Source: Cordylochernes scorpioides (Eukaryota > Arthropoda > Arachnida > Pseudoscorpiones > Chernetidae). From it: a stretch of 64,000 nucleotides of DNA. Of this stretch, positions 3,254 through 62,876 are shown piece by piece. Below the pieces are notes generated by a model. It did not search any database. It saw nothing but the letters and a program-made list of their open reading frames with translations, and was not told the DNA's origin. Location of the stretch: NCBI GenBank assembly GCA_030710605.1, contig CP092879.1, positions 44,645,151-44,709,150 of the forward strand, given 5' to 3'. The position numbers and the translations under genes were made by a program. Within the stretch, counting starts at the first letter, position 1; each line of letters starts with the position of its first letter.

Positions 3254-3763
3254 TATCACATCTTGTTTTCCAAGAGAAATATATTAATATCCAAAAGGAG
3301 TACCTTTGTAGTATAAAATACATTAAAACATGATGAGTACCATAGCGAGAAACCATGGTATAGAGGTTTGCTTTTGTTTGTATTTGGTAAAACTGATGTT
3401 GGGGCACATTCATATCGTCCATCTTTGCGTTCTGCACTGTATTAAAAACAAAATGCATTGTTTTAATGCATTTTTAAGCAAGAGGGGTTTTCTATTTGGA
3501 CATAGAATCTTGTAAATAAGATTCTATAGTAGGAATATGAAGAAGAAGAAAGAGCTATGAGTTCAAAAGATGATAGTTAAATTAGATAATAGTTTGTGTG
3601 CTACATTGTTCTATAGTGCATGAGAGATAACAATGAGAATACATTTAATTATTCTACTTTTCATACAAATTATTTATCTCCACATTACTATCCGAGTATC
3701 TCGCTCTCTCAGAACTACTACAAACATAACAAGATATGATATCATAAGGCGATAACGGGCCAT

Positions 3764-12039: not shown

Positions 12040-12205
12040 TTAGGCTTAGGATAACCCTATACTCACGAGGACCATTCTCCCGAAACCATGTTCTTCAGGT
12101 TAACCTTCTAGGCTTACCAGGGTTCAAATTGTGGCTTTGTCAACGACCAGAATCCGCTAGTTTCTTGAAACGGTCAATAAATGGCATTCAATTTTAGTGT
12201 TCATT
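12040..12205 (+). mobile_element. decayed hammerhead-bearing retroelement terminus
   Basis: CTCACGAGG, a spacer, then CCCGAAACCATGTTC (12062-12093) aligns with the intact minus-strand hammerhead at 37952-38006, but with core G5 changed to C and stems II and III broken. Downstream GTGGCTTTGTCAACGACC and ACGGTCAATAAATGG match the sequence that follows the intact ribozyme, so the whole module is homologous. The copy at 23590-23745 carries the same lesions. Confidence 0.6.
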
Positions 12206-12654
12206 GGTCGGGATTGGTGGCCGTTATTTTTATAGATTGAAAACCTTTTTACATTTATTTTTATATATTGTGTTTAAAATGTTAATTACTCTGAAGACAT
12301 ATTCAATTTTCAAAATTTTAAGAGATGAGTTAATAATAATAAATAAATTACTTACTTTTCTTACATTTAAATTCATTAGACATCTTCCTCTATTTGATAA
12401 ATATTTATTATTATTGTGACAATTATTTAATTAATATTATCAAATATATATGTACATTATGAGAATTTTTTGATCAAAAAGAAATTTAAATAGAATTACA
12501 TTCACGTTTATATAAGAGATAGAGAGAGATTTGTGAAACTAGTTACATTTAAAGTTTTCATATTTCTTTTTGTCTTTTATAGCGTCACATATTTCTCTTC
12601 AAAAACTTATGTTTTGGGAGAAGAAATGGACAGAGTTGTCTTGTTTCTTTCCAT

Positions 12655-23589: not shown

Positions 23590-23745
23590 TTATTGGGCTA
23601 AGGATAATCCTATACTCACGAGGACCATTCTCCCGAAACCATGTTCTTCAGGTTAACCTTCTAGGCTTACCAAATTCGAATTGTGGCTTTGTCAACGACC
23701 CGAGTCCGCTAATTTCTTGAGACGGTCAGTAGATGGAATTCAATT
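23590..23745 (+). mobile_element. decayed hammerhead-bearing retroelement terminus (X2 copy)
   Basis: CTCACGAGG and CCCGAAACCATGTTC at 23614-23645, followed by GTGGCTTTGTCAACGACCCG and GACGGTCAGTAGATGG. Same core G5-to-C lesion as 12040-12205, so the change predates the block duplication. Confidence 0.6.
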
Positions 23746-24199
23746 TTAACGTTCATTGGTCGGGGGATTGGTGGCCGTTACTTTTATAGGTTGAAAACCT
23801 TTGTACATTTATTTTTTATATTTTGTGTTTAAAATGTTAATTACTCTGAAGGAAAATCCAATCTTCAAAACTGTAAGAGATAAGTTAATAATAAATAAAT
23901 TACTTACTTTTCTCACATTTAAATTCATTATACATCTTCCTCTATTTGATAAATATTCATTATTATTGTGCCAATTATTTAATTAATATTTCCAAATGTA
24001 CATTATGAGAATTTTTTTATGAAAAAGAAACTTGAATAGAATTAAATTCACATTTATATAAGAGATAGATATTTGTGAAATTATATTTATATTTAAAAGT
24101 TTTATATTTATTTTTGCCCTTTATAGCGTCACATATTTCTCTTTAAAAACTTGTTTTTTTCGTAGAAGAAATGGTCAAAGTTGTCTTGGTTGTTCTTTC

Positions 24200-28540: not shown

Positions 28541-28708
28541 ATGATGCGTCAGAAAATACGCAAAGTTATTTCAATATCAAATTAGATATGACTACTCAAC
28601 CATTTATTGTTTCTCTGGCTAGGTCTCTGGCCTGACTCTGCTGCTTCTTGTTGTCTGAAGATTTCTGAATCGTTTCTTTTCAACTCAATTTTATTCTTTT
28701 GTACTTCA

Positions 28709-28905
28709 ATGACTTCTAGGCATCATTCAGCTGATTATTTAAGGTGGCGTGGTATTGGATGGATGGAAATAGGATTAAGCCAAGCTAATGCAGAAAGAAG
28801 TCTAAATGTTTCATGAAAGGTGGCCTCACGCCTCTGGAAACAGTTTCAAGATACAGATGTTTCCTGAAGACCTTTTGCAGGATGCCTAAAATTCCAGGAC
28901 CATTC
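28709..28905 (+). pseudogene. Tc1-like transposase N-terminus, degenerate
   Basis: From ATG 28709 the frame reads MTSRHHSADYLRWRGIGWME, then IGLSQANAERSLNVS, a TGA, KVASRLWKQFQDTDVS, a TGA, and RPFAG. This is the paired-like helix-turn-helix of Tc1-type transposases, which binds the terminal repeat: recognition pattern RWR..G...GLSQ..A...LNVS..V..RLW.QF. Both stops are TGA where the family has Trp/Ser-type and Arg codons, consistent with single transitions. The DDE catalytic region is not found downstream. Confidence 0.75.
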
Positions 28906-30240: not shown

Positions 30241-30320
30241 GATTGCAGTAAAGACAGTAGAAATTGTTTAATTTCAAAAATAATCATACGCGTCTATGAT
30301 AGTTTCGAATTTTCTAAGAG
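30241..30320. repeat. half foldback element
   Basis: One arm only of the 14170-14500 family (CAGTAGAAATTGTTTAATTTC...CGCGTCTATGATAGTTTCGA). It marks the junction between the two tandem X units. Confidence 0.55.
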
Positions 30321-30643
30321 CTTTCACAGAATAATCAAATATCTTTATTATATCTTATACTTTATTTACTGTATAAATAAGTTTCAGATTATAACCTATT
30401 AGCTACTAGATTCTGGTAAATTAATAGGAATGGTGGATGATTTTACGTCTTTGATAAAGGTTCTGCTAGATTTTTTTTAATATTTCAAATTTATTTTATT
30501 TCAATAAAATACTCTGGTGCATACATAGAATTTATCTAATCCATTATTGATATTAGTTTAAATTACATTTATAATTAGTTTATACTTTTCACTATAGATG
30601 GCGTGACCAGTTTTATCCAATTAAGGAAACAATAGAGTAAATA

Positions 30644-30820
30644 CAGTTAAACTTGTCTATAGCGCTCCCTCTTGGGACTTACCAAAATAGGGTGCTATAG
30701 AGAGGGGGTGCTATAGACAGGTCACGTTTAATGTTAAATGTTTACATTTTAATGTTTAAAATCGGGCGCTATAGAGAGGAAGGCGCTATTTAGAGGGAGC
30801 ACTATAGACAGGTTTAACTG
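30644..30820. mobile_element. pogo/Tigger-like MITE (copy 3)
   Basis: 177 bp, CAGTTAAACTTGTCTATAGC to CTATAGACAGGTTTAACTG, TA on both sides. Same length as copy 1. Confidence 0.8.
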
Positions 30821-31424
30821 TATTTACTAGCAAAATATTGCACTCAAATTATAATCTGTGACAGTGTTTATTTTCCAAAGTCGAATTTCTATAGTAAGTA
30901 AGCTGAAGAATATAGTGTCTTCTTCGTTTAATGATTTCTTTTAACTTTGCTTCAAATAGAAAATTTTGAGACTTACGATGGTGATTATTTGTTAACATTT
31001 CAATTGTATATTCCAAGTTGAATTTGTCTGTTTGTTTGCTGTATTTGGGTGAGTTTTATGAGACAAAATTATAATTTTCTACACAAAGTACTTTGTGTTA
31101 TTGTTGGTTATATAAACAGTGAGTTATATATTCTCGACGTTTCTTTGGGGACATTATATACAATAATATAAATCGAACTTTAAAAAATAAGAAGAGTATC
31201 AATGCTACCAAAAAGCTACAATATCGCTTTGAATTTATATTAAATAATAATAAACCGTGCTGGAGACGCCGGTTATGTACATTTCTCTTTTTTTTTTTTT
31301 GCTTATTCAGCCAGAAGATTTACATATTTGTAAATATAATTCTGTATATAAGGATGTGCAAGTTTAATAAAGGTGTGTCATTAATAAAGCGGGTGTTGGT
31401 GAATTATTAGTGTCATCAGGGTTT

Positions 31425-31615
31425 CTGGTGTTGGCGGCACTTTTAAGGAAGCATATAGGCTTCAATTCGGTTGGAGACCAGAAGAAGTCTGGCAAGAAGA
31501 TACAGTCAAGCTCTGCCATAACTATTTAGATAAGGCCAGACTTATCAAGGATGTGGCAAGATTTCCGAGATTAGTAAGTGAGGCAGTGATCGTATCCGAA
31601 ACACGTACTTTGTTT
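31425..31615 (+). pseudogene. coding-like repeat block, copy 3 (open, unrecognised)
   Basis: An open frame reads FKEAYRLQFGWRPEEVWQED, then LDKARLIKDVARFPRLVSEA, through to ETRTLFCVSM. See 27790-27990. Confidence 0.4.
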
Positions 31616-31790
31616 TGTGTTTCTATGTATGTGGAATGTCTTGTGTGTTGCTATGTCCGGCGTTAGTTGTGAGTAATATGTTATGTGTAGTGATGTGTGA
31701 ATCAGGTATTCGGTGTTGGTTAGTTTAGTGTATTGTTGTGTATCGTGATATACACTGATGCCCAAAAGTCAAGTTACACCTGGTTTTTGC

Positions 31791-31890
31791 NNNNNNNNNN
31801 NNNNNNNNNNNNNNNNNNNNNNNNNNNNNNNNNNNNNNNNNNNNNNNNNNNNNNNNNNNNNNNNNNNNNNNNNNNNNNNNNNNNNNNNNN
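31791..31890. other. assembly gap 2 (100 N)
   Basis: Exactly 100 N. Left edge (...TGGTTTTTGC) is adjacent to gap 4's right edge (TCCATAAGTT...) in the homologous unit at 16331-16350. Right edge (ACCATTGAAT) is adjacent to gap 1's left edge at 56191-56210. Confidence 0.95.
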
Positions 31891-33315
31891 ACCATTGAAT
31901 AATGGGCTACCTAAACCGAAGTCTGTACCCCTGAGTGACAAGGGCAAATTATATGTACCAAATGAGGCATCTCTCCACTTAAATATGCATCAAAACGATC
32001 CACACGAGATCTAATGGAATCTTCACAATCTCCCAAAGAGGTATTTAGCTGGCAAAGTGGCTGGGCCAAATCAATGGCTAAAATATAGATGGAAATTTTG
32101 CCGGCAGGATATGGCAACAAAGGTTATGTTATATCGAACATGCAATAATGATCTTAATAATAATTCGTCCAACGACTGTCCTTGAATGATCTGATTATGG
32201 AGAAAAATAGGGCACGTAAATTGCCTAAACCAAATCACTCCTATGCTTAATTGTTTAAAATATTAAAAGTTTTAATTTTGGATAATATAGGAAGCGAATT
32301 TGAGATATATGAAAAGGAAAATCGTAATAAATATCAACTATTCTCATTGATTTTTAATTATTACCGAATTTGCCAAATACCCTTTCTTAATTAATCAAGA
32401 AAAGCTAACCACGTACGGGCTCTTGGCCCTCATCACGTTGGTGCAAACTGTACCTCAACGACCAAAAAACTGGTCATTCATGCATCCAGAAAAATCATAA
32501 ATTAGAGATATATGTGAATGTATATTCAATTTAAAATATTTTGAATAATTTAGAGTATTTGAAATCCTTCTAAAAATTAAATGTATTATCTTTACTTCAC
32601 ACAGATACAGGTACACCTCTTTTACCATCGTAAGATATATTGGATCGCCAATCATACTTACTTTCGGTTTTGAAAGCATTCAATTTGAAAATTTTAGGGC
32701 AAATAATTTAATGCTCTAGTTTAAGTTCTACATAAAACATAAACAATTTCCTACTACTTCAACTTCAATTATAAATTTCTTGAAATGGTTCATCAGCGGT
32801 GTATTCTAACGATGGTTTCACCACTGCATCCTTTGAGGCTCTTTTAGGAATATCGCAAGATCACACTTACCTACCATATCTTGAAATATCGTGATATATG
32901 GGGATAGCCCACTATCTAGAAACGATATAGTCTGTTAATGTATCTAAAAAATCATATTTCATATATTCCGCATAGTTTGGGAATAGTTAGAGAATTTCGT
33001 AAAGGATGTTTCACTTCCTTATAAGGAATTAAAATGTCTCAATTGGATAGGAGGGGATAAGCGAGGTTAAAGTTGAGAGACCATCTTGCCTAACATTGGC
33101 GAATACTGAATAAGCTAAAGATATTTCTGCATTATATTTGGGTCTGTTGAGAGATGTTACATGCATTTGCTAGTCTTTGTTTTTATTGGTCTTGATTTGC
33201 CCTTTCCCGGAATTTTCTTTAATAAAATATTGATTCTGATAAATGAAGAGAACTTAGCATGTCGAGGTATAGATCCTTCTAATACTAAATCAGAGAATGG
33301 TTTTCTGGGTTCTGT

Positions 33316-33645
33316 TGATTTATATACACACATACAGCTTTATTAAGAGACCACCGGTCTTATACAGATTCACTATAGGAAGGAAGCATAGATGGAGTTC
33401 CTATACTCCAGGCAGGGCAGAACCCAATACTTTCCAGGTCCGACGCATCTCAAGTGGCCACAGAATCCACCGTGCATAGGTTAAGCATAGGCACTGAAAA
33501 GGCGAGTGTGGAATCAGCCGCATGCTAGTCTTTCGCTTTCTTCATCCAAATAGACCACGACATTCGGCGATTCTATTAATCTCCGAACGGTGACTGCAGC
33601 CTTGCAGAATTTCCGTTGATTTATATATTTATAAGCTGGAGATTT
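33316..33645 (-). mobile_element. TG-tailed LINE 3' fragment
   Basis: The minus strand has C-terminal codons AAVTVRRLIESPNVVVYLDE near 33545-33600, then decayed sequence, then the 3' tail CTTAATAAAGCTGTATGTGTG at 33316-33345. Same family as 4644-5736, whose C-terminus has the comparable KHRGAIVLVDDE. Duplicated at about 57640-57945. Confidence 0.6.
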
Positions 33646-33649
33646 TGGA

Positions 33650-35050
33650 ATGCAAAGGTAATACTTGTCTATAGCATCTCTACTTCACAACTCCTTACAA
33701 CCGCAGATTTGGGTATGGGCGAAATTGTGATCTAATGATGATTATTGATTTTTAAAAAGAAATATTTTGCTACGCTGCAGCTCTCGCGAAAGAAGCGCAC
33801 GGTTCGAGGAATGTTTTATTTATTCGTAAAAACAAGCAATGATTGATATCTTAAGAAAAACGATTTTTAAATATTCGAAATGTCTAACATTATAAGTGTT
33901 ATCTTGTAAAAGGGTACATTTTCAGACTTTCCGAAGAGTTCAGATAATTATGAAAAATATATAATATTGCTATTACTAAAGAAATAAAGAAAATATTATA
34001 TATTTATTAAATTAAGGGGGAATATTTTTATGTGAAAAAAGGTGCCTGAAAAAACCCTTAACTCCAACCGAAAGGAATATGAAGGAAATTGTTGTCAGAG
34101 AGAATCTGAGAAATGATTCCAATAAAATTTTGATTTTATTAAGAAACAAAAAGATTTTGACGAAAATATCAGAAAAAAGTATATAGGGTTATATATAAGT
34201 TTTAAAAAGGAACAAATATAATGAATAGATTCGTTGCTTGCCGAATTTCTCTAAGTTACGTTACCAAATGATTACGACATTGCGTATTTGCCATCAAAAG
34301 GTGAAGAAATGGCCATAAACAGAAGGTCTTCGAACGGATTTCCCACTTCTCCATTATCTGTCAGTTAAGTGCCACACCTAGATACATAGGAATTTCTTTA
34401 TAAGGAAAGTTTTGACCAGGGTCACATGTCCCAATCTGTTTCCCCTAGTATTATGGGAGGGACCTGTTCTTATTATTGCCTCATGCCTTAAGTCCTTTAC
34501 ACTCCTTTGGCGTTTCTATGGTCACGGCTTTGTCGTTTAACATTGACTTTAACATCGGTATGAAATGAATCATTTCATACCTAAATTCTCCAATAATTTC
34601 TGGAAATGGCTGAACCCACAATCAATATGTTAAGGTCTCGACGTATAGCATGGATTTAGAAGGGAATTTTGACTAACACGAATAGTTCAATGGGCGCTAT
34701 TTGGTTATTTTCCCTGCTTCCTCACCTGATTACTTCTTTTTACATAATACGTTTGAGAACATAATACCTTCTCTTGTTCTGCGTCAACTTCTTTTGTCTC
34801 CTTTTATACTTCTTGTCTACTTTTTATATATTTCTTGTGTCTTCCTTATGTACCTCTTGTGTCCAGTCCTTATATGATTCTATATTCCCTCTTGTATATT
34901 TGCATACCCTTTTTGGACTTCATATGTAATTATAGGCTACACTTCTCTCTCTCTCTCTCTTTCTCATTATCACATAAATAGTGCGGACTGTGCACTTTAC
35001 ATGTATTGACAAGAGGTCAATAAAACTATGTCAATTGTCATTGTCTCTCT
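33650..35050. other. no gene recognised (block Y1)
   Basis: AT-rich unique-looking sequence, duplicated at 57950-59345. A TTGTGTC/CTCTTGTCT-rich pyrimidine tract at 34790-34980 ends in (TC)n. No supported feature. Confidence 0.5.
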
Positions 35051-35053
35051 TAA

Positions 35054-35135
35054 AGTAGCGTGGCCGAATGGTCTAAGGCGCTGGTTTTAACCACCAATCT
35101 TAATGAAGGCGTAGGTTCGGATCCTATAGCTGCCA
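35054..35135 (+). tRNA. tRNA-Leu-like (UAA), probable pseudogene or SINE head
   Basis: 82 nt with a Leu-type long variable arm. D arm GCCGAATGGTCTAAGGC, anticodon stem CTGGT/ACCAA with loop TTTAACC (anticodon TAA at 35088-35090), variable region, T arm GTAGGTTCGGATCCTAT, discriminator A and a 7-T terminator (35136-35142). The body resembles eukaryotic tRNA-Leu(AAG) (GTAGCGTGGCCGA...GCTGCCA) but with a changed anticodon. Acceptor pairs 1-72 (A-C) and 7-66 (G-A) are mismatched, stem pair 27-43 is C-A, and base 37 is C rather than a purine. These defects argue against a functional tRNA. About 150 bp downstream to a T-run at 35280 is conserved in both copies. Confidence 0.6.
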
Positions 35136-35144
35136 TTTTTTTAG

Positions 35145-37205
35145 ACGATTAACACTCTCCTTTACAAAGATGGAATATTCTTCGGACCCAGAGGTAACCA
35201 GGATTTTTAGAAGCGGTATTTCATTGAGGTGCCAATGTTGTAACATGGTGTTGTTATTCGAGATCTTCTTTAAGATGTTTTTTTTTAATTTTTTTTTAAT
35301 TAAGTCTTTTTAATCTCAGGTATGATAGAATTTTGTATATTTTCTTTTTTATGATAAAGAGACAATAAATTAAAATTAAAATTGAGCTTTTATTTCCACT
35401 TTATTTAATAGTGATAGAACTCGAGAACTTTTGAAATGTTCAAAAAAGAAATCCGATTTACTAGCTTCAATAATACATCAGAATTTCTAAAAAGAAATAT
35501 GTCAAATAATTCACATTCTCAAATGTTAGATAAAGACATATTTTCTTAACAAAGTTAACTTCTCATTCCATGAGACTTTAATAAAAGGAATAAAATATAT
35601 TTGAATAAAAAAACTAGTTTTTGGGCAATGAGTTTCTTTAATTTTTAGGTGTTTCAAGTATTCGAGCAAATATTGATAGTCAATAGGCATATAATAATAA
35701 ATAAGACAACAAGATTATCCTTAAGCCAGAGAAATTAAAGGAAATTATTTGTCTGGTGAAAAGCAGAATTTTCTTTAAAGTTTGCAACACCTCAAATAAA
35801 GAAAGAGGCTCCCTGGCCAGCATTCATAGTTCTTGAAAATAAAGATACTTCGGCCAGCAAATCTTTTTATTACCTCGACATTTTGACAAAAATATTTTCA
35901 AAAATAAAATAATTTCTTCTTCTTCTTTCTTATCTCCACTCAATCATATTAGAGAATCAAGTTGTGACTCTTGATGGTGTCTGTTTGACAACCATCATGA
36001 CTGGGTGAAGTAGAATGCGTCTGCCTTTGTTATAAAGTATCTTTATTTTCAAGAACCTCAAATAAAGCTCTTTTTCGTTCAAAAGCTAGTTTTCTTTATT
36101 CAAATATTTCTAGGTAACATTTGTTCGAATAAAATATATTGTTTATTGATAATGTGTTTGATTGCTCATTTAAAAACACACAAATTCAGTATAGCTCTAA
36201 TTATTTTTAACAATATATTTTTAGCTAAAGGAGGGAATTGTTTTATTAGTTATTATTAGTGTAGACTTAAGTTTCCCCAGAAATAATATTTTTATTTTTA
36301 ATAAAATTTAAATTTATTTCATCGTCTTTCTTGCAGAATGTTGTGAAAGATAATGATTTACAACTGCGTTTAAAGGGGTATTAGTAGTTCTGTTGGAAAA
36401 AATGCCAAATTTCAACTTCTTTAACCCATTTACTCTAAATATTGAAACATATGAGCAATGATATTTCTAAAAATGTCTAAATATGGTTCGTGTTACAAAG
36501 TAGAAATGAATATAACTTTTTAATAGAGAAATCATATGATATAAAACCATGTCGATTAAACAAAAAAGGACTTTATTAAAAGCTTTATTTTAAATATATA
36601 TACATGTATATGCCTCTAAGAACTTTGACTCTTGTTAAGAAAAATGACAAAACTAAACGTTTCCGAAATATGATTTTATCTTAGAAAGGAGGCTTTGAGA
36701 AGTAAGGAATACTGTTATAACAACATGTTTTGATGATAAGGTACAATTTGGATTAGAAAAACAAAGTAATAAAACCATATCCAAATAAATAGTAAATAGC
36801 ATGTGACCTTAGGTAACAACGTTGTTACCACTATCAGAGAAAAATATTTTGTTACCGAAACGTCACACATTATTTATGTATTTAGATTTGGCTTTATTAC
36901 CTCGTGTTTCTAATATATAGTAACGATGTATATAGTCTCAACGTTTGTACATATATATTCTTTCCCTGTTTTATTTTTCTATATAAAATCTCCTTCAGCC
37001 TTTTTTTCTTTTTCTCTTTTCTGAGCGAGGATGCCATTTCTTACCTGCTTCTCATTTCTATGTGGATCCATTACTCACAGGAGAATCGTCTGTTTAAGAC
37101 GGAATGTCTTAGGAAAGGCTTGTGTGTTTGTTTCTAATATATAGTTTAGGTAAAATTAGAAAGACGAAAGGTAACAAAATATGAACATAATTCTCATAAA
37201 ATTGA
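35145..37205. other. block Y1 sequence with repeat scraps only
   Basis: Contains the AAGATACTTCGGCCAGCAAATC repeat at 35835-35900, the start of the ~160-bp repeat (CTTATCTCCACTCAATCATATT) at 35930, and CGAAACGTCACACATTATTT at 36857. No coding sequence recognised. Confidence 0.5.
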
Positions 37206-37211
37206 ACAAAA

Positions 37212-37420
37212 TACACTCATTGACAAATTTAAGGAAGTTGTACTTTTGCAATGTATATCGTGATTCAGGTAATAACTCTGAAAGATATTTGATACATATA
37301 GTGACCTTAATTAAAAACACACGAGATAACCAAGTGTGAACAAATTGTATCTGTCCTCCTTCAAAAATATAGACGAATATAAAAGACTTTTCACTTCCAT
37401 AAGTTTTGTCCATTAGTGTA
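37212..37420. mobile_element. Tc1/mariner-type MITE
   Basis: TACACTCATTGACAAATTTA at the left and TAAGTTTTGTCCATTAGTGTA at the right, inverted to each other. 209 bp bounded by TA. Duplicated at 61634-61841. Confidence 0.75.
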
Positions 37421-37819
37421 TAAAGGTTTTGAAATTGAAGCATATTTTTATCTTTAAAACACAAACTGCATCTTTCCAATTTTCATTTCTATAAATGACA
37501 TGATAGCCACTAGTTTGAAAAGGGGTACTTACCTGATTCAGACAAGAATGTTGTGATTCCAAGAGATAAAGGACTTTACAGAAGTGAGACATCGTTTGTT
37601 CCTAATTTAAATAATCTAACTTTTTTTTCACTTCAGCCACTTTGTCTATATAAATGTTATGAACTCTGTAGAATAATACATGTAAATTTGTGATTATTTA
37701 ATTCTAAGTTCTAATTTGTTTGTTGTTTTGTTTCCTCTATATTAGGCGCAAATATTTCAATATCGCGCCAGGTTGATTAATAAATTAATTTAAAAAGAAA
37801 TAGATGAAGGAAATATTTT

Positions 37820-38168
37820 CCATAGAAGCACAGGGCACCTCTCCCGTCAAAATAAAGGTCAAAAACTGACGCCATCTATTGACCGTCGCCGCAACTAGCG
37901 GCCTCGGGTCGGTGACAAAGCCACAACACCAGCTTTGGCAAACTGAGAAGCGTCCACCTAGAGACCATGGTTTCGGGCTAATGGCCCTCGTCAGTCTAGG
38001 GCGGACTTTATTCCATGAGATCCACAAGGGATCTAATGGAATCTTCAAAATCTACCAAAGAGGTGTTTTGCTGGCAAGGTGGCTAGGCCAAATCTATGGC
38101 TAGAATAATGATGGAAAATTTGCCGGGAGGAAATTGATCCATAGAAGCACAGGGCGCCTCTCCCGTCA
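37820..38168 (-). mobile_element. hammerhead-bearing module between 30-bp direct repeats
   Basis: The 30-bp repeat CCATAGAAGCACAGGGCRCC... occurs at 37820-37849 and 38139-38168 (29/30 identical), 319 bp apart. Between them on the minus strand lie a GATCTAATGGAATCTTC-type segment (also at 32010 and 56320), the hammerhead ribozyme (37952-38006) and a GTGGCTTTGTCACCGACC...GACGGTCAATAGATGGCG segment. Direct-repeat bracketing suits either a long target duplication or a partial tandem terminal repeat as in Penelope-like elements and retrozymes. No coding sequence. Confidence 0.6.
37952..38006 (-). ncRNA. type I hammerhead ribozyme
   Basis: All core bases are present on the minus strand: CUGACGA (37994-37988), GAAA (37974-37971) and UC before the predicted cleavage point (U 37964, C 37963 | 37962). 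Stem II is GGGC/GCCC with loop CAUUA (37987-37975). Stem III is the minimal ACC/GGU with a 2-nt loop (37971-37964); ACCAUGGU is self-complementary and could pair between two RNAs. Stem I is CCUAGA/UCUAGG (6 bp), an internal loop (GC opposite U), then GUCC/GGAC (4 bp). The internal loop in stem I opposite a stem II loop is the arrangement that gives natural hammerheads fast cleavage. Expected role: self-cleavage of retroelement RNA. Confidence 0.85.
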
Positions 38169-38468
38169 TAAAATATTTTGTAATCTTATATTTGAATATT
38201 CTTCCTGATTAATTGAATAATATTTTTAGAAAGTAAATAGAAGTTTTATATAGAAGTCAGTCATCTCTCAGTTCTGACCTTATTAACGGCATTTGACTTA
38301 TTCTTTAAATCACTTTCTATAGTTTTGACTTCTTTATCTTTGTTACATTCAAATTCTCAGGTCTCAAATAGATCATTTTCATTTATTCCGCTTCTCAATC
38401 AGTTTAGTAATATTTGGATATCATCTTTCTAATCATATGGTACCCAGTTAAAATATTTTGTTTAAAAT

Positions 38469-38683
38469 TACACTCACGGACAAACCTTAGGGAAGTTGTA
38501 CTTTTTAGCATATATATCGTTTTTCAGACAATAACTCTGAAAGATATTTGTCACACAGTGACCTATATTGAAGACACACAAGATAAGCAAGTGTGAACAA
38601 AATTGCCTCTGTCTCAATCAAAAAAAAGATGCCTGGGGCGTAATAAAAGACTCTTCACTTCCTTAAGTTTTTCCATGAGTGTA
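38469..38683. mobile_element. Tc1/mariner-type MITE
   Basis: TACACTCACGGACAAACCTT ... AAGTTTTTCCATGAGTGTA, 215 bp, TA at both ends. Duplicated at 62877-63089. Confidence 0.8.
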
Positions 38684-38689
38684 TATACT

Positions 38690-39925
38690 CATTAACAGAA
38701 TATGAGTACTTGAAAAGGTTTCAAATGAAATATTACTGGAATGAGAGTCGATTGAAAGATTTCATCTTTTGTAATTATTTCTTAATATTACTTTGTTTCA
38801 TTTTTCTTTACTTTTCTTCTTATAATTTATTATATATTAAATATAATATTTTATTTTAAACCATTTTTAAAAAACTATATTTTCTTCATTTTTATTTAAT
38901 AGTGAGAGTCCATCACTTCAATTTGAATAGTTTTGAACACTATTCTATACTTGCTTGAATAAATAAATAAATATATATATTGAATCATATTTTCTTGTTT
39001 ATTGAATTATGTATGTTCTTGATTTATAGTTATACTAAGGAATTCTGAATATTCTAGATTGAAATAGCTTTTCACTGAGAAATCAGAAATTTCAATGACT
39101 ACTTTGAGAGATAGGTAGTTTGAGTATAGGCTTGCAAAGAGTGGCCAAAGGCTAACGGCTGGAAACGCATCAATTTTTGGCTTTTCTTGATTTATCGTAA
39201 ACATATTTTAGGCCAATATTCTGTAATAAAGTTTAATCATTAACTTAAGATATCGTTTTATCAATAGCAATATTCAGTGAAAGATAACGATATGAATTTT
39301 TCATTATACATTTTTTATTTTCGAGTTTGTATATCTCAAATTCATATATTAGCATTTTCATGTGTTGGAATAATTATAGTAAGCCTTTTGCCCAATAAGT
39401 TATTTTATCTGATTAAGGGATTGAATCTTTATACATTTATAATATATATTCTAATTTGATATATCTATGTGAAACATATTTTTGTTGAGGTTTAATACTT
39501 TATAGAAACCTGGAAGATAAATTAGTATTTTAATCGTATAATCAATTTTAGCTTGTTTCTTATTCCATTATCTGGTCCTCATATTCATAAATAAAATGAT
39601 TTTGATGACTTGTTTATTTACTTCCTAGAAATTTTGGCATTTTATATTCTTGATTTGAATACAAATTAAGTTTATTAAAGAGAATCAATAACAGTGTAGT
39701 TTTTCATTTCCTTCTTTGCCTAGAAACTAGAAGATCAACTGTTCAACTATAAGTTCGGATATGAGAATTGGTAGCAACTGTGTAACTATGTTTATTGATT
39801 CTTTCTATGAATGTGCTGAAGCCGATGGTACTAGCTGAAGCTCCTTATTGCATTATTGAGATACGAAGGACTGGTGAAATCTCTAGTATTTCTTATGGAT
39901 GGATGTTCTGAAAATGGATTATATT
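38690..39925. other. AT-rich, no gene recognised
   Basis: Up to 39587 this is the end of block Y1. The remainder is single-copy within the window. No supported feature. Confidence 0.5.
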
Positions 39926-39929
39926 TCAT

Positions 39930-40142
39930 TCATAGTCAAAACCTAAGGAAATGGAAAGTATTTAATCTCTTGGTCATCTATTTTTTCATAAGGAAGCAGA
40001 GGCAATTTTGTTTACATTTGGTTATCTCGTGTGTCTTCAATAAAGGTTACTGTGTATCAAATATTTTTCAGAATTATTATCTAAATCCCGATATACATGC
40101 TAAAAGGTACAACTTGCTTAGGTTTTTTGTCCATAAGTGTTT
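39930..40142. mobile_element. Tc1/mariner-type MITE, decayed
   Basis: Left end eroded (AGTCAAAACCTAAGGAA); right end CTTAGGTTTTTTGTCCATAAGTG. Body GGTTATCTCGTGTGTCTTCAATAAAGG matches the family. Confidence 0.6.
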
Positions 40143-40144
40143 AT

Positions 40145-41035
40145 TTTGAAATACAATTCTAAAATTGTTAAAAGACAAATATTCTGAAAAAGATAAGTAG
40201 AAGGTCAGGTTAAAAAATAAATCCAAAGAAAGATCCTGACCGCACAAATGATTGTTTAAGATTACATATTTTATAAGATATTTTCTTATATGATAGGTGT
40301 CGTTCATTCAGCACTATTCTGAAATATTTTCAACTCTCCTTTCACCTTCTACTGTCCATTAATAGTAATTGAACTTCGGTGAAGATGAGTTGGCAATCGT
40401 TCATCAGTAGGGTTGATGGTAGTAATTTGTGTCGAATTATTTTCAACTCTACTCACTTTCTACTGTTCATTACTTCGCCAAGTGGGGAATAAGGGGTGAG
40501 ACGATGTCTCAATGAGGAAGTGGATATCCCAGCAGGAAAATTTCCTCGAAGTTTTGCCAAACCGATCATTCTTGCGGCAGATTTGGTAATAGATTTGTAA
40601 TTATAGGAATAATTAAATATACTATTTGAAGGCTAACATGAGGTCAGTGTCGTATCTTTTAAAGAATACATAGATTTCTTTCTCAGCAAAAGATGCGGAA
40701 ATTCCCTATTATAGAGTCGTAGCAGAAGAATACTTTCAATCCCACTCTCGTATATTTATAAAATGAACCTTTTTTATGAGAAAGATGAAAATATGTCATT
40801 AATAAGGCTATATAACTCGTTACTACTTCCTCATAATAATAACTGAACGAAATGGCGAAAAAACAACCATTATATATATATATATATGAATCATCAGGAA
40901 AATAAATACCATATTTGATTTCCTGTAAAGGAGATGAAACATTATGTTTAGGATAAAAAATATATTTTACTTTTTGTGCTAACTCTCAGTACTATAATTA
41001 CAATATATGAATCAAGTGTGAATATTTATGTACCT
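40145..41035. other. AT-rich, no gene recognised
   Basis: A CAACTCTACTCACTTTCTACTG / CAACTCTCCTTTCACCTTCTACTG pair near 40330 and 40443 indicates a local duplication. Otherwise nothing supported. Confidence 0.45.
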
Positions 41036-41089
41036 CTTCTCCATAGTTACATCAAACACTAACACTAAACCTCCCTTTTTTTTTTGTTT

Positions 41090-41245
41090 TTTTTTTAAGG
41101 AGACAGAGGCAATTGTGTTCATACTGGTTAGCTCCTGTGTTTTCAATAAAGCTCACTGTGTATCAAATATATTTCAGAGTTATTGTCTGAATCCCGATAT
41201 ACATGATAAAAGGTACAACTTACTTGAGTTTTATCTATGAGTGTA
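41090..41245. mobile_element. Tc1/mariner-type MITE, left end replaced by T-run
   Basis: Begins inside the body after a long T-rich run and ends ACTTGAGTTTTATCTATGAGTGTA. Left terminal repeat not found. Confidence 0.55.
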
Positions 41246-41349
41246 TTGGGAGGGCTTTATTTCTTCATTTGTAACATGTTTACAAATACATCCATAAACC
41301 GATACCTCTTAGAAAGGCAAAAATAGTAAAACTATACGTTTTCTAGATG

Positions 41350-41560
41350 AGGTACTTATTTCGAACGAAACGAATAAAATGGACTGATAGATTGTGCCAA
41401 CGAGGCTATCCTAATATTGATCGAGTTGGGATATGGTCTACTGGAAGCGATTGAAAGAATCCGCATGTTTGAACATCTTATTCGGCACTCTAAGGAGCTA
41501 TCGGTGTCACTGGAGGGATGTGTATGGTTGGAAGACCAGCATGAATAATAGACGAGAAAA
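41350..41560 (+). pseudogene. RTE-like LINE C-terminal remnant
   Basis: Reads KRIKWTDRLC, then in a shifted frame NEAILILIELGYGLLEAIER, then IRMFEHLIRHSKELSVSLEG and a stop. The order WTDR..NEE.L......L...I..RR..F.GH..RH resembles the tail that follows the RT domain in RTE-type LINEs. Short, frameshifted and without flanking RT. Assignment rests on motif spacing only. Confidence 0.45.
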
Positions 41561-41741
41561 TGTTAATGGATAATTTCGGGAAACGACCCCATGAATTTAA
41601 CGAAATACTGAATGTGGAAAAGAATCTCTGGAAGGACAATAGTACCATCTAACAATCTAGATGATGAGGTGATATAAATGAAGATAAATAAGTAGAATAA
41701 AATCAATGAGAGAAGTAACAGAAGTTCAAAATGTCTTCAAG

Positions 41742-41952
41742 TACACTCATGAACAAAACCTAAGTAAGTTGTACCTTTTAGCCTGTATATAGTGATTCAG
41801 ACAATAACTAAAATATATTTGATAGGCAGTGACCTTTATTGAAGATACACGAGATAACCAAGTGTTAACAAAATTGCTTCTGTCTTCTTAAAAAAACAGG
41901 CTCCGGCGACATTAAAGAATTTACACTTCCTTAAGTTTTGTCCATGAGTGTA
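41742..41952. mobile_element. Tc1/mariner-type MITE, well preserved
   Basis: 211 bp. TACACTCATGAACAAAACCT ... CTTAAGTTTTGTCCATGAGTGTA, with terminal inverted repeats of about 28 bp and TA at both outer edges. One of the clearest members for defining the family. Confidence 0.85.
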
Positions 41953-42124
41953 TATTATAGTTAGGTATGTCGATATTTGCAAGCCCTATATGCCCAAGAA
42001 CCAGGCTATTTCTTTTCCCTGTCATCGTACTCGGATGGATAAACAATATACCTATCGTTCTAAACCCTGAGGAGTTGAGCTTTAACCAAAAATTAACAAA
42101 AAATCCTAAACAAGATCTATGATA

Positions 42125-43129
42125 ACCTTCCTATCTCTCTCTGCCTGCCTGAAGGGGTCCAGGCCTATCTTCGCGGTGCCGCCAACAGCTACTCTTGGCT
42201 GGTCCTTAGCCGGGCGTGGCTGACACCGCCGGCTCCTGACGTCTGGCTCTCGCCTAGGAGGAGGAGACTGCTGAGCCTGTGGGAGGCCTCCTCGAGCTTG
42301 ACCACCGGGTTCTTCATCCCGCCAGCCTGAGGTCCCTGCGTCTTCGAGGTGACAACAGGTTCCTGCGGCCGCCAGACCTGCTGGCTCCCGAGCGCTGGTA
42401 CAAGCGACTGTCGGGGACTTCTCCGATGGCGCCCCTGCACTAGCGCGCTCAACGCGGGCCGCGCTCCTGGACGCGCAGCATCTGGGGGCCTTCTGCCAAC
42501 GTCTCCTGCGGGAAAACGCCAGCTCCAGCTATCATGTGGAGTACGAGGCGGAGACCATCGTCATGCGGGGATCGGCGACCCCCATCACCCACCTTACCAG
42601 CCAGAGGGCGCGCCGGGCATTGGACTCGGCACGGCTCCAGGCGAATCCTACTGCAGAGCTGGCTGCCCGGTGGACCCCCACCGTGGATGTGCCCCGCTCC
42701 ATCCCCTGGGCCGACCTGCGTCGAAACTGCTTCTCGGGGCACGACGCAGATGTCGCCCTACGGCTGGCCCTCCACGCCCTACCACATCCTGACCATCCTG
42801 CTTCGAGGCGTGCCACCTGTGCCGCCTGTGGGTCAAGCGACGGGGTCGCTGACCCACAGATATTGGAGTTGCTGAGCCGTGCGACCCCTGCTCCGGGAGG
42901 TGTTCGCCTCCTGCGAAATGCCCCTGGATTTGCAGGCCTGGCTCTTCGCGTCTGCCTCCATCCCGAGGCTGTGAAGCTAACAAGTGTGGCGAAGGCTACC
43001 ATCTACAAGTACCATCTTGGTCTTGAGTTGGGTAATGCCAGCCAACACATCGACCTGCCCACTCTGTGGGAAAGAACTCTCGCAGTCCATCGGTGGCGGA
43101 GTCTTTCTCGCGGTGGGCGCCACCAATGA
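42125..43129 (+). pseudogene. GC-rich LINE 3' end, frameshifted ORF C-terminus
   Basis: About 1 kb of conspicuously GC-rich sequence in an AT-rich setting. Plus-strand frames join as GVQAYLRGAANSYSWLVLSR / WLTPPAPDVWLSPRRRRLLS (42150-42326), LRSLRLRGDNRFLRPPDLL, then DAQHLGAFCQRLLRENASSS and YEAETIVMRGSATPITHL (from 42418). A CAACGSSD Cys motif follows, with a frame-shifted LTHRYWSC...AVRPLLREVFAS, and finally AKATIYKYHLGLELGN to a stop at 43129. This resembles the region after the RT in a LINE (Cys cluster, HRYWSC), with at least three frameshifts. Clade unresolved (Tx1-like is a guess). Antisense frames here are shadows. Confidence 0.55.
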
Positions 43130-43260
43130 AGACCTTGTATATATTATTTATATATATATGTATATTTATCAATTATTTTATCTATTTATATCTATTTATT
43201 CATATATCTATCATTATTAATCTTATTTATTCATTTTATGTATTTAACCTTATATAATCT
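43130..43260. repeat. low-complexity AT (TATT)n tract
   Basis: TATTTATATATATATGTATA and related tetranucleotide-like repeats immediately after the GC-rich LINE end. Probably its microsatellite tail. Confidence 0.5.
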
Positions 43261-43294
43261 TATATGTACGTTATAATGAATCAGTTTCAATCTC

Positions 43295-43392
43295 AATCTC
43301 TCTCTTTCTCTCTCTCTCGGCCGTGCGGCCACGCGGCGCACGAGCTCCTCGTTTTTCGCCGATGGAGGCGAGGAATATTGAGCTGACCAACT
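43295..43392. other. (TC)n then GC-rich scrap, cut by gap
   Basis: CTCTCTCTTTCTCTCTCTCT is followed by GC-rich GGCCGTGCGGCCACGCGGCG... up to the N gap. GGCCGTGCGGCC is palindromic. Composition resembles the 42.1-kb element, so perhaps another retroelement end. Confidence 0.4.
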
Positions 43393-43492
43393 NNNNNNNN
43401 NNNNNNNNNNNNNNNNNNNNNNNNNNNNNNNNNNNNNNNNNNNNNNNNNNNNNNNNNNNNNNNNNNNNNNNNNNNNNNNNNNNNNNNNNNNN
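43393..43492. other. assembly gap 3 (100 N)
   Basis: Exactly 100 N. Neither edge could be joined to another place in the window. Confidence 0.95.
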
Positions 43493-43716
43493 TTTCAAAC
43501 ACAATAATCATGATATCAACAAAATATTTGGCATCAAAGTATCAGTGAATATTTGAAATAAATTTATAAAATCAATTTTCAAAGCAAGTCTGATAAGTTC
43601 GAATACAGTCGCGCGTAAGGGTTTTCTACAAATATCTATTTAGGAATGTTTGTACTTAGAAGAAACGCCTGTGGAAGAGGTTTTTTAACTTCTCGAAAGC
43701 TTGATAATATTAATAA

Positions 43717-44137
43717 CTAGCCGAATGACCCGGGCAACGCCCGGGTTTTACCCTATTAAATGTACCCTGTTTCACCCGTGGTCTCTGTTTTTTGGATTTT
43801 TTCCGATATAATTTTGTATCTGATAATCAAACATGATACAGCAAAATTTTTAAAATAGCCTATCGTCTTCCCAGTATTCTTTTACCTATGTATGGAAATT
43901 TTGGTTTGAATTAATGAACTACTGAGAATTTGTAGACGAATGACCCGGGCAACGCCCGGGTTTACACGATTAAATGTATATTACATATGGAAGATGGACG
44001 TAGTTCCCGGAGGGCACCCGCGAGGCCACTCTGCCCCCGCGCAACTGTCCAACTGGGAGCGCCCCGCGCCGTCAAAATCGTCACGCGTTCTAGAGGGCGC
44101 TGCTCCGGCCGTCAGCCGGGAGATCTCATTTACTCGG

Positions 44138-47735: not shown

Positions 47736-48119
47736 TTAAAAAAGGATTTGTCTAATATGAAAATGTGTATAGAAAAACGTTTTTACCGAGCATGTAAATG
47801 ATTGAAATTGATCCAGCGCATCTAAACTACGCATCCAGCACGAATATTCTAGAGGTAGACTTGAATTCATGAGATCCACGGTAATTCCTCATATCTTCAG
47901 AATTTGCCAAAGAGGTGTTCAGCTGGCAAAGTGGCTAGAGCTCGTTTTTAGTGATTATTTTAACGGTAGATATGGATATTTTATATATCATTTTCACAGA
48001 AATATGGTGCTTAATGTTACAATTTTTTTATTAAAGCGGCAGCGTGAACCAGATTTTTGTAGAAGAACTATATTTATTTTTGATCGAATGTGAATAAGTA
48101 TAGAAAGAAGTAAAGAAAA

Positions 48120-49966: not shown

Positions 49967-50424
49967 TTGACAAGGCGACATTTCCATATTTGGTAGACTT
50001 GAAGGTCTTAATGAGGCTTTTCACCAGAAGTTCTTCACACACAAGCACACAAAAATAAATTTAAAAAACTCATTTTCACATCTTTCGAACAGTTCATCTA
50101 TATCTCTATAACAGGTTACAGGTAAATTTTGCCAGAGGGAAACTGATCATAAAAAGAAAGACCACATCTTCAGTGAAAATTCAAGTTCAAAATTATACGA
50201 CAGCCATTGTCCGTCTCTTCTATCTATAAAGCGGGGCGATTACAAAGTCATAACACGTCTTTTCATCATTTTTGGAGAGGATAGTCAAAATATTCATCTA
50301 TATTTGGCCTTAGAATTGGCTTAGCATTTTTCAAGATAAGAACCTATTTGGAAAACTTCAAAGATTTGATGCATTCTCTCATAAACAAAGCCGCCATAGT
50401 ATAAATATGTCCGTAGCGCTCTAA

Positions 50425-50565
50425 AACCATGGTTTCCATGGGCATTCGGAAATTTATAAAACTCACGATGATGGCTTTGCTACCGGTACAAAGATTACAT
50501 ATTTCGATTACAGAGATGGTCAACAGATGGCGTATAGTTTTTGCGTCTATATTTTGAAAGGAGAT
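50425..50565 (+). mobile_element. strongly decayed hammerhead-module copy
   Basis: AAACCATGGTTTCCATGGG, then ATGGCTTTGCTACCGGTAC and AGATGGTCAACAGATGGCGT are in the same order as the segments following the ribozyme at 37820-37990 and at 12040-12205. The CUGACGA box is gone. Confidence 0.45.
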
Positions 50566-50633
50566 GTAGCATTATTTTTTGATTGTATAGATAGGAACAC
50601 AAGTCGGATATGCAGTAAGTAGTAAGCATAAGG

Positions 50634-56200: not shown

Positions 56201-59200
56201 ACCATTGAATAGTGGGCTACCTAAACCGAAGTCTGTACCCCTGAGTGACAAGGGCAAATTATATGTACCAAATGAGGCATCTCTCAACTTAAATATGCAT
56301 CAAAACGATCCACACATGGATCTAATGGAATCTTCACAATCTGCCAAAGAGGTATTTAGTTGGCAAAGTGGCTGGGCCAAATCAATGGCTAAAATATAGA
56401 TGGAAATTTTGCCGGCAGGATATGGCAACAAAGGTTATGTTATATCAAACATGCAATAATGTTCTTAATAATAATTCGTCCAACGACTGCCCTTGAATGA
56501 TCTGATTAGGGAGAAAAATAGGGCACGTAAATTGCCTAAACCAAATCACTTCTATGCTTAATTGTTTAAAATATTAAAAGTTTTAATTTTGGATAATATA
56601 GGAAGCGAATTTGAGATATATGAAAAGGAAAATCGTAATAAATATCAACTATTCTCATTGATTTTTAATTATTACCGAATTTGCCAAATACCCTTTCTTA
56701 ATTAATCAAGAAAAGCTAACCACGTACGGGCTCTTGGCCCTCATCACGTTGGTGCAAACTGTACCTCAACGACCAAAAAACTGGTCATTCATGCATCCAG
56801 AAAAATCATAAATTAGAGATATATGTGAATGTATATTCAATTAAAAATATTTTGAATAATTTAGAGTATTTGAAATCCTTCTAAAAATTAAATGTATTAT
56901 CTTTACTTCACACAGATACAGGTACACCTCTTTTACCATCGTAAGATATATTGGATCGCCAATCATACTTACTTTCGGTTTTGAAAGCATTCAATTTGAA
57001 AATTTTAGGGCAAATAATTTAAAGCTCTAGTTTAAGTTCTACATAAAACATAAAAAATTCCCTACTACTTCAACTTCAATTATAAATTTCTTGAAATGGT
57101 TCATCAGCGGTGTATTCTAACGATGGTTTCACCACTGCATCCTTTGAGGCTCTTTTAGGAATATCGCAAGATCACACTTACCTACCATATCTTGAAATAT
57201 CGTGATATATGGGGATAACCCACTATCTAGAAACGATATAGTCTGTTAATGTATCTAAAAAATCATATTTCATATATTCCGCATAGTTTGGGAATAGTTA
57301 GAGAATTTCGTAAAGGATGTTTCACTTCCTTATAAGGAATTAAAATGTCTCAATTGGATAGGAGGGGATAAGCGAGGTTAAAGTTAAGAGACCATCTTGC
57401 CTAACATTGGCGAATACTGAATAAGCTAAAGATATTTCTGCATTATATTTGGGTCTGTTGAGAGATGTTACACGCATTTGCTAGTCTTTGTTTTTATTGG
57501 TCTTGATTTGCCCTTTCCCGGAATTTTCTTTAATAAAATATTGATTCTGATAAATGAAGAGAACTTAGCATGTCGAGGTATAGATCCTTCTAATACTAAA
57601 TCAGAGAATGGTTTTCTGGGTTCTTTTGATTTATATACACACATACAGCTTTATTAAGACCACCGGTCTTATACAGATTCACTATAGGAAGGAAGCATAG
57701 ATGGAGTTCCTATCTCCAGGCAGGGCAGAACCCAATACTTTCCAGGTACGACGCATCTCAAGTGGCCACAGAATCCACCGCGCATAGGTTAGCGCATCAC
57801 TGAAAAGGCGAGTGTGGAATCAGCCGCATGCTAGTCTTCGCTTTCTTCATCCAAATAGACCTCGACATTCGGCGATTCTATTAATCTCCGAACGGTGACT
57901 GTAGCCTTGCAGAATTTCCGTTGATTTATATATTTATAAGCTGGAGATTTTGGAATGCAAAGGTAAATACTTGTCTATAGCATCTCTACTTCACAACTCC
58001 TTACACCGCAGATTTGGGTATGGGCGAAATTGTGATCTAATGATGATTATTGATTTTTAAAAAGAAATATTTTGCTACGCTGCAGCTCTCGCGAAAGAAG
58101 CGCACGGTTCAAGGAATGTTTTATTTATTCGTAAAAACAAGCAATGATTGATATCTTAAGAAAAACGATTTTTAAATATTCGAAATGTCTAACATTATAA
58201 GTGTAATCTTGTAAAAGGGTACATTTTCAGACTTTCCGAAGAGTTCAGATAATTATGAAAAAATATATAATATTGCTATTACTAAAGAAATAAAGAAAAT
58301 ATTTTATATTTATGAAATTAAGGGGGAATATTTTTATGTGAAAAAAGGTGCCTGAAAAAACCCTTAACTCCAACCGAAAGGAATATGAAGGAAATTGTTG
58401 TCAGAGAGAATCTGAGAAATGATTCCAATAAAATTTTGATTTTATTAAGAAACAAAAAGATTTTGACGAAAATATCAGAAAAAAAGTATATAGGGTTATA
58501 TATAAGTTTTAAAAAGGAGCAAATATAATGAATAGATTCGTTGCTTGCCGAATTTCTCTAAGTTACGTTACCAAATGATTACGACATTGCGTATTTGCCA
58601 TCAAAAGGTGAAGAAATGGCCATAAACAGAAGGTCTTCGAACGGATTTCCCACTTCTCCATTATCTGTCGGTTAAGTGCCACACCTAGATACATAGGAAT
58701 TTCTTTATAAGGAAAGTTTTGACCAGGGTCACATGTCCCAATCTGTTTCCCCTAGTATTATGGGAGGGACCTGTTCTTATTATTGCCTCATGCCTTAAGT
58801 CCTTTACACTCCTTTGGCGTTTCTATGGTCACGGCTTTGTCGTTTAACATTGACTTTAGCATCGGTATGAAATGAATCATTTCATACCTAAATTTTCCAA
58901 TAATTTCTGGAAATGGCTGAACCCACAATCAATATGTTAAGGTCTCGACGTACAGCATGGATTTAGAAGGGATTTTTGACTATCATGAATAGTTCAATGG
59001 GCGCTTTTGGTTATTCGCCATGCACCCTCACCTGATTACTTCTATTTACATAATACCTTTGAGAACATAATACCTTCTCTTGTTCTGCGTCAACTTCTTT
59101 TATCTCCTTCTTTTATAATTCTTGTCTACTTTTTATATATTTCTTGTGTCTTCCTTGTGTACCTCTTGTGTCCAGTCCTTATATGATTCTATATTCCCTC

Positions 59201-62237: not shown

Positions 62238-62576
62238 CCATAGAAGCACAGGGCGCCTCTCCCGTCAAAATAAAGGTCAAAAACTGACGCCATCTATTGA
62301 CAGTCGCCGCAACTAGCGGCCTCGGGTCGGTGACAAAGCCACAACGCCAGCTTTGGCAAACTGAGAAGCGTCCACCTAGAGACCATGGTTTCGGGCTAAT
62401 GGCCCTCGTCAGTCTAGGGCGAATGAGATCCACAAGGGATCTAATGGAATCTTCAAAATCTACCAAAGAGGTGTTTTGCTGGCAAGGTGGCTAGGCCAAA
62501 TCTATGGCTAGAATATAGATGGAAAATTTGCCGGGAGGAAATTGATCCATAGAAGCACAGAGCGCCTCTCCCGTCA
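62238..62576 (-). mobile_element. hammerhead-bearing module (Y2 copy)
   Basis: 30-bp direct repeats at 62238-62267 and 62547-62576. Same interior as 37820-38168 but with a short deletion after the ribozyme's stem I. Confidence 0.6.
62371..62420 (-). ncRNA. type I hammerhead ribozyme, truncated stem I
   Basis: Core CUGACGA, stem II GGGC/GCCC, GAAA, stem III ACC/GGU, UC cleavage site and inner stem I CCUAGA/UCUAGG are identical to 37952-38006. A deletion of about 11 bp has removed the outer GUCC strand (GGCGAATGAG follows instead of GGCGGACTTT), so the outer half of stem I and the tertiary-contact internal loop cannot form. Cleavage would be expected to be slower. Confidence 0.75.
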
Positions 62577-62876
62577 TAAAATATTTTGTAATCTTATATT
62601 TGAATATTCTTCCTGATTAATTGAATAATATTTTTAGAAAGTAAATAGAAGTTTTATATAGAAGTCAGTCATCTCTCAGTTCTGACCTTATTAACGGCAT
62701 TTGACTTATTCCTCAAATCACTTTCTATAGTTTTGACTTCTTTATCTTTGTTACATTCAAATTCTCGGGTCTCAAATAGATCATTTTCATTTATTTCGCT
62801 TCTCAATCAGTTTAGTAATATTTGGATATTATCTTTCTCATCATATGGTTCCCAGTTAAAATGTTTTGTTTAAAAT

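Follow-up and report, generated by a model that had tools for sequence, protein, structure and literature searches.

A type I hammerhead motif within a probable retrozyme-type repeat of the pseudoscorpion Cordylochernes scorpioides

A complete type I hammerhead motif was identified on the minus strand of contig CP092879.1 of Cordylochernes scorpioides, within a short non-coding insertion that has diverged relatives in the same 64,000-nucleotide stretch of DNA (hereafter the window). We consider it reasonably probable that the insertion is a metazoan non-LTR retrozyme-type element, probably mobilised by Penelope-like machinery, with a hammerhead that would act mainly as a dimer. Hammerhead elements are thereby probably extended to a pseudoscorpion; a literature search for pseudoscorpions and ribozymes, incomplete in coverage, found no paper.

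Recognition of the hammerhead motif

Two sites in the window carry the motif, the first of them also in an extended form:

37957..38000, minus strand, type I hammerhead core (descriptor scan; covariance model 37.6 bits, E 1.6e-10)
37952..38006, minus strand, the same hammerhead with an outer 4-bp GUCC/GGAC extension of stem I (sequence, fold)
62375..62418, minus strand, identical hammerhead in a segmental duplication copy, outer extension gone (descriptor scan, covariance model)

The minus strand of the first site reads CCUAGA CUGACGA GGGC-CAUUA-GCCC GAAACCAUGGUC UCUAGG, with a 6-bp stem I (CCUAGA/UCUAGG) and a 4-bp stem II (GGGC/GCCC) capped by the loop CAUUA and followed by GAAA and ACCAUGGU. 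All core elements of type I hammerheads, CUGANGA, GAAA and U-H17, were present as judged by sequence, descriptor scan and covariance model, and the three helices of 6, 4 and 3 bp, with stem I open, gave a covariance alignment spanning model positions 1-50. The original prediction had placed a complete core on this strand (CUGACGA, GAAA and UC at the scissile site), and the letters agree; the 4-bp stem II and the outer GUCC/GGAC helix of its 6+4-bp stem I with an internal loop are likewise there. The internal loop of stem I is confined to the copy at 37952..38006 and is absent from the 62-kb duplicate. Stem III was correctly described as self-complementary, but rather than 3 bp with a 2-nt loop it is better drawn either as an intermolecular stem of 8 bp or, within one molecule, as 2 bp closed by a CAUG tetraloop. 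From the sequence, cleavage would be expected after the C at 37963 (37963|37962).

A descriptor scan of both strands of the window returned this motif and the identical one at 62375-62418, and no others. The original prediction had put the motif forward as the only element that looks functionally intact; the second minus-strand copy of the 44 nt contradicts its being the only one, and what is supported is an intact sequence rather than an intact function. In 1500 Markov-resampled windows, scanned on either strand, motifs with stems of at least 6/4/3 bp turned up twice, these thresholds having been picked post hoc once the motif was known.

A covariance model was built from viral-contig hammerhead patterns and included no sequence from the window. 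Among the matches listed, 348 passed the stem checks and 192 distinct candidates had the chosen loop sizes, leaving 116 after thinning. In the alignment of these 116 sequences 98.4% of cells were paired on the hammerhead structure, compared with 66.3% in shuffles, a figure that checks the alignment and not the motif, the training sequences having been preselected for pairing stems. Applied to the window, the model gave two sites at 37.6 bits and the next best at 11.3 bits (E 0.43), its E-values being rough; with filters off over 30000-64000 the same two hammerhead sites ranked top. The original prediction had staked its claim on a covariance hit, and this independent model from 116 viral-contig hammerheads matches both sites.

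The hit that it had expected from Rfam did not appear with release 15, in which no hammerhead was found over the window at curated cut-offs, nor at E<=10 on 3001 or 101 bases. None of the 10 viral-contig control loci picked by hammerhead pattern (7 of them also in the stem-checked list) passed the hammerhead cut-off, and all three controls searched by E-value scored below the RF00163 cut-off of 34 bits (30.5, 28.5 and 28.4), which argues that this cut-off is strict; these three were listed by Rfam below the cut-off, whereas the 37957-38000 motif was unlisted even at E<=10. A chance match to a short motif would be in keeping with the lack of an Rfam match and with the two motifs in resampled windows, but we give it virtually no weight, since the site scored 37.6 bits with the independent model, 26 bits over the next site, and since decayed relatives hold recognisable hammerhead remains at the same unit position. 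A chance motif is rejected on the covariance model, which separates the site from background. At the level of sequence, the complete type I hammerhead at 37957-38000 is confirmed.

The same searches yielded several separate observations. Three viral-contig type I hammerheads (L014, L020 and L026) score 28-30 bits with RF00163 and are missed at default settings. Another viral-contig locus (L146:4245-5360) carries four type I hammerheads spaced 257-494 nt, each with GGAGCAT..ATG within about 30 nt downstream, resembling a ribosome site and start codon; the same hammerheads occur at L158:9236-10320. Other viral-contig pattern scans gave 3, 2 and 0 loci, and a BLAST search of three family copies from the window against 125 viral-contig loci gave a best E of 0.033. 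Rfam matched a U6 snRNA-like sequence at 20518-20623 (minus strand, 101.3 bits) and tRNA-like sequences at 35054-35135 and 59353-59434, inside the segmental duplication, where ARAGORN with the bacterial setting found none.

The insertion, its relatives and its duplicate

The hammerhead at 38 kb lies in an insertion with the following parts, all on the minus strand:

37820..38170, non-coding retroelement insertion of 351 bp (direct repeat, target-site duplication, family profile)
38171..38179, 9-bp target-site duplication AAAATATTT, upstream copy on this strand
37811..37819, 9-bp target-site duplication AAAATATTT, downstream copy on this strand
38138..38171, 34-nt repeat, copy at the insertion's 5' end, joined head-to-tail to the unit
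37819..37852, 34-nt repeat, copy at the insertion's 3' end

The limits 37820-38170 follow from AAAATATTT, which adjoins both sides; this sequence is AT-rich, and an equally good match occurs in 9 of 4000 junction pairs drawn at random from the region. The 351 bp comprise one 319-nt unit and 32 nt belonging to another. The last 34 nt of the unit recur at its front with 94% identity, 319 nt apart, and the 5' repeat has a profile match at 38171-38137 (model 291-325, E 0.0076). Diverged counterparts of the 34 nt lie close to the 3' end in the 12-, 23- and 50-kb copies, with scores reached by 2, 3 and 3 of 500 shuffles, respectively, the 50-kb counterpart covering the first 16 nt and the 12- and 23-kb copies being duplication partners. 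Because other copies hold these counterparts in their 3' regions, the 34-nt repeat belongs to the element, and its reading as a target-site duplication is ruled out. At the front of the 50-kb copy the 34 nt are not evident (125 of 500 shuffles equal), and the head-to-tail junction of 32-34 nt occurs in one insertion and its duplicate. The covariance model found no tandem second hammerhead at any locus in the 64-kb window. The 319-nt unit has a GC content of 49.5% and is overlapped by no ORF of at least 120 aa, none of which occurs between 25577 and 42105.

Further copies of the family were found by BLAST and with a family profile:

12048..12245, plus strand, copy truncated 5' at the hammerhead, core mutated to CUCACGA (BLAST, family profile)
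23603..23799, plus strand, partner of the 12-kb copy by duplication, likewise with a mutated core (BLAST, family profile)
31995..32119, minus strand, copy of the 5' module only, without hammerhead (BLAST, family profile)
56306..56430, minus strand, segmental-duplication partner of the 32-kb copy, 5' module only
47854..47944, minus strand, fragment stopping near hammerhead stem I, without hammerhead
50276..50600, plus strand, near full-length copy, hammerhead decayed (profile E 9.3e-61, the copy itself being in the profile)
50148..50272, minus strand, partial copy in inverted orientation (model 197-322), facing the 50-kb copy head-to-head
3331..3412, plus strand, fragment with decayed hammerhead, AAACCAUGGU retained (BLAST E 2.9e-4)

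The profile was built including seven relatives from BLAST, the weakest being the fragment at 3331 (E 2.9e-4); the inverted copy at 50148-50272 is a sequence outside the profile and matched it with E 9.5e-7. With duplication partners counted once, the family occupies six independent loci including the 38-kb insertion. None of the diverged relatives in the window has an intact hammerhead, the core being changed at 12, 50 and 3.3 kb and the hammerhead absent at 32 and 48 kb. A candidate hammerhead remnant 5' of the 32-kb copy (32408-32442; partner 56719-56753) was rejected at only 6.7 bits (E 9.8).

A fixed 3' end common to the 38-, 12- and 50-kb copies is only suggested by the sequences, these copies having been cut at one 3' point for the profile, which partly sets the shared end. 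Beyond it the 38- and 12-kb copies show a weak similarity, equalled by 21 and 36 of 500 shuffles, and their BLAST match extends about 100 nt past the cut, with 66-67% identity over the whole match, while the 38- and 50-kb copies are dissimilar there (172 of 500 shuffles equal). The copies at 32, 48 and 3.3 kb stop before the profile 3' end, and inspection by eye of the flanks of the 12- and 50-kb copies revealed no target duplication.

The second intact hammerhead belongs to a segmental duplication (31891-39587 against 56201-64000) of two blocks with 95.7 and 92.5% identity, 24.3-24.4 kb apart, and the two intact hammerheads are therefore one insertion seen twice:

62238..62578, minus strand, duplicated insertion, differing by 7 substitutions over 341 columns and by a single 10-nt gap

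The 9-bp repeats AAAATATTT also bracket the duplicate (62579-62587 and 62229-62237), and a 10-nt deletion takes away its outer stem I helix. Between the duplicates the changes amount to 7/341 in the element, 0/44 in the hammerhead and 209/3509 in the second block, and 11 of 101 windows not overlapping the element were equally conserved or more. Selection on the hammerhead, considered from this pair, is not supported, the close neighbourhood being similarly conserved.

The same comparison bears on whether the ribozyme at 38 kb is a fossil, that is, a young and undecayed copy that is idle in the cell. This is a serious possibility, which we hold tentatively: every other family copy in the window lacks an intact hammerhead, one duplicate has lost the outer helix, and the conservation of the element is not clearly above that of its neighbourhood. 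The core and three stems are unbroken in both duplicates (44/44 identical), a counterpoint that is weak, about one change being expected in 44 nt at the element's rate. That the host has adopted the hammerhead for RNA processing at this locus seems very improbable; the motif is intact in both segmental duplicates, but its conservation does not clearly exceed that of the surroundings, the interval 25577-42105 has no ORF of at least 120 aa, and the motif sits in a mobile element.

A GIY-YIG or Penelope protein was found in none of the 18 of 21 ORFs of at least 120 aa that were scanned. In the same set, reverse transcriptase and endonuclease matches were restricted to 7521-9001, 9414-10562 and 12876-13925, which are LINE-like and distant from the element.

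Several other repeats and open frames were observed in the window. Broken LINE-type copies with endonuclease/reverse transcriptase sequence occupy 7521-10562 and 12876-13925 (minus strand). For the endonuclease ORF at 9414-10562, the matches listed include six homologues at E<=1e-20, five of them from Cordylochernes scorpioides with 94, 99, 75, 97 and 52% identity over 57, 32, 40, 27 and 52% of the query, respectively. A Pif1 helicase 2B-domain match at 17250-17705 (minus strand) perhaps represents Helitron remains. The region 42001-44000 is GC-rich (47%, against 28-37% in other 2-kb windows) and has six overlapping open frames of at least 120 aa, of which four were scanned and none gave a Pfam match. 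A dispersed family of about 220 bp, with ends like ACACTCATGGACAAAACTTAAGGAAGT, is perhaps a small DNA transposon:

37208-37422, 38465-38685, 39903-40150, 41739-41955, 50634-50861 and 19433-19655, both orientations among the copies, ~220-bp family

Predicted folding and proposed mode of multiplication

In the minimum-energy fold of the 55-nt monomer (-22.2 kcal/mol) the core GAC pairs with the GUC at the cleavage site, compared with -16.2 kcal/mol for the hammerhead fold without stem III and -14.9 kcal/mol with it, all with energy parameters that omit the non-canonical core of the hammerhead. A lone 55-nt RNA is thus predicted to fold into an inactive form. Among the 116 control hammerheads, 96 keep at least 80% of the hammerhead pairs in their minimum. 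For two molecules the minimum, at -51.6 kcal/mol against twice -22.2 kcal/mol, was a double hammerhead in which stem III spans 8 bp and stem I is slightly displaced; the exact textbook double-hammerhead pairing gave -46.8 kcal/mol. These models hint that the hammerhead acts mainly as a dimer through the self-complementary ACCAUGGU stem III. Dimer action had been anticipated by the original prediction, with which the modelling accords: in the monomer minimum the core is paired to the scissile strand, and two molecules are predicted to be most stable as a double hammerhead.

Folding z-scores for the hammerhead region were -3.08 (63 nt, with the extension), -1.93 (44-nt core) and -0.90 (57-nt duplicate), and for the 57-nt stretch of the 62-kb duplicate 30 of 200 shuffles folded as well. 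The 353-nt RNA had a folding energy 5.0 sd below that of shuffles, with none of 100 equal to it. A 319-nt circle folded at -115.2 kcal/mol, whereas Markov shuffles gave -85.5 (sd 11.3) and mononucleotide shuffles -85.9 (sd 6.0). Of its bases 64.6% were paired; the corresponding values for the two kinds of shuffle were 59.9% (sd 4.1) and 61.1% (sd 3.3), a difference of +1.1 sd. PMC4918200 cites more than 70%, above the fraction found here.

For the retrozyme-type element we infer transcription, cleavage, circularisation, a start site and a mobilising enzyme as follows. The hammerhead would cleave read-through transcripts of the units, mainly as a pair of hammerheads held together by the ACCAUGGU stem III, and the RNA would stay multimeric or be sealed to a circle of about 319 nt. 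A reverse transcriptase given in trans, probably Penelope-like, may begin copying within the unit, 143 nt 3' of the cut, and proceed once round plus 32 nt more, with integration at an AT-rich site generating the 9-bp duplication. A unit followed by 32 nt of the next is what would be expected if multimeric or circular RNA was copied. Since the 38-kb locus has one hammerhead only, it is more likely to be an insertion product than an efficient source.

Comparison with known hammerhead elements

The original prediction had likened the minimal stem III to those of Penelope-like elements and animal retrozymes, a likeness supported by the covariance model, the dispersed repeat family and the insertion anatomy. 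A weak, tetraloop-capped stem III of 1-2 bp is also described in PMC7229834 for newt satellite DNA and for axolotl HHR_Amex1 and HHR_Amex2, being palindromic in HHR_Amex1; the amphibian repeat unit of about 330-350 bp is near the size found here, and amphibian retrozymes with a weak stem III cleave better as dimers. Unlike the amphibian repeats, the present family has another host and sequence, and no tandem hammerheads in the window.

Animal retrozymes are described in PMC7229834 as small non-LTR repeats, about 170-400 nt long and low in GC, that carry type I hammerheads, form RNA circles and have target duplications of more than 4 bp. The strong candidate for their mobiliser there, as also in PMC7761336, is Penelope-like elements. 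An example from a tick appears in the legend to Fig. 7 of PMC4918200. The 319-nt unit (GC 49.5%) with a type I hammerhead and short stem III, the 9-bp target duplication and a stable predicted RNA resemble metazoan retrozymes so described, while the Penelope-like insertion marks seen here are not among the retrozyme traits given in the sections of PMC7229834 drawn on here. Retrozymes as published usually have tandem hammerheads, at least two per locus. Unlike metazoan retrozymes, the 38-kb locus has 1.1 units and one hammerhead.

The Penelope element of D. virilis has a 34-bp extension. According to PMC3846280 and PMC11167929, Penelope elements have a pseudo-LTR (pLTR), an optional tail of 31 bp or 30-40 bp, target duplications of 8-10 bp at AT-rich sites, head-to-head inverted pLTRs and solo pLTRs, with a hammerhead at the pLTR-ORF junction and reverse transcription beginning inside the ORF, 111-118 nt from its start. 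The main rival to the retrozyme-type assignment is accordingly that the insertion is a solo pLTR with the tail of an autonomous Penelope-like element and not a separate retrozyme, its minimal hammerhead marking the pLTR-ORF junction and the AUG of ACCAUGG being, or lying near, the start codon. This anatomy is matched by the 34-nt repeat, the 9-bp duplication and the one head-to-head partial copy, and the 3' end lies 149 nt after the AUG (115 nt without the 34 nt). We nevertheless find this reading doubtful, as the 34-nt repeat abuts the unit directly, without coding sequence in between, and GIY-YIG was not found in the 18 of 21 ORFs of at least 120 aa that were scanned. Starting at the AUG, the reading frame stays open for 30 codons in the 38-kb copy, 42 at 50 kb and 2 at 3.3 kb, lengths reached by 470, 111 and 1861 of 2000 shuffles, respectively; an ORF beginning in stem III was not retained, its coding signal being unclear with open lengths that shuffles reach. 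The 38-kb family is filed as retrozyme-type, probably mobilised by Penelope, with the solo pLTR as the leading alternative.

As a retrozyme-type family it differs from Penelope in that no attached reverse transcriptase or GIY-YIG ORF was found and in its head-to-tail junction inside a non-coding unit; it also has the pairs of a short stem III, whereas minimal Penelope variants usually lack helix III according to the reviews cited. It resembles Penelope in its minimal stem III, the likely action as a dimer suggested by the folding models, the 34-nt tail, the 9-bp duplication at an AT-rich target and one head-to-head inverted partial copy (50148-50272), although the tail, the duplication and the inverted copy are each known from a single insertion, and no one insertion combines all three. 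We offer as speculation, and consider unlikely, the more general proposal that animal retrozymes are ORF-less Penelope pLTR units that retain a hammerhead, an internal start of reverse transcription with its tail of about 34 nt and Penelope-style integration, and are moved directly by Penelope machinery; if true, it would name the enzyme that mobilises animal retrozymes. The family joins a retrozyme-sized unit with Penelope-style insertion marks, and the question of the mobilising enzyme can be tested by genome-wide junction counts.
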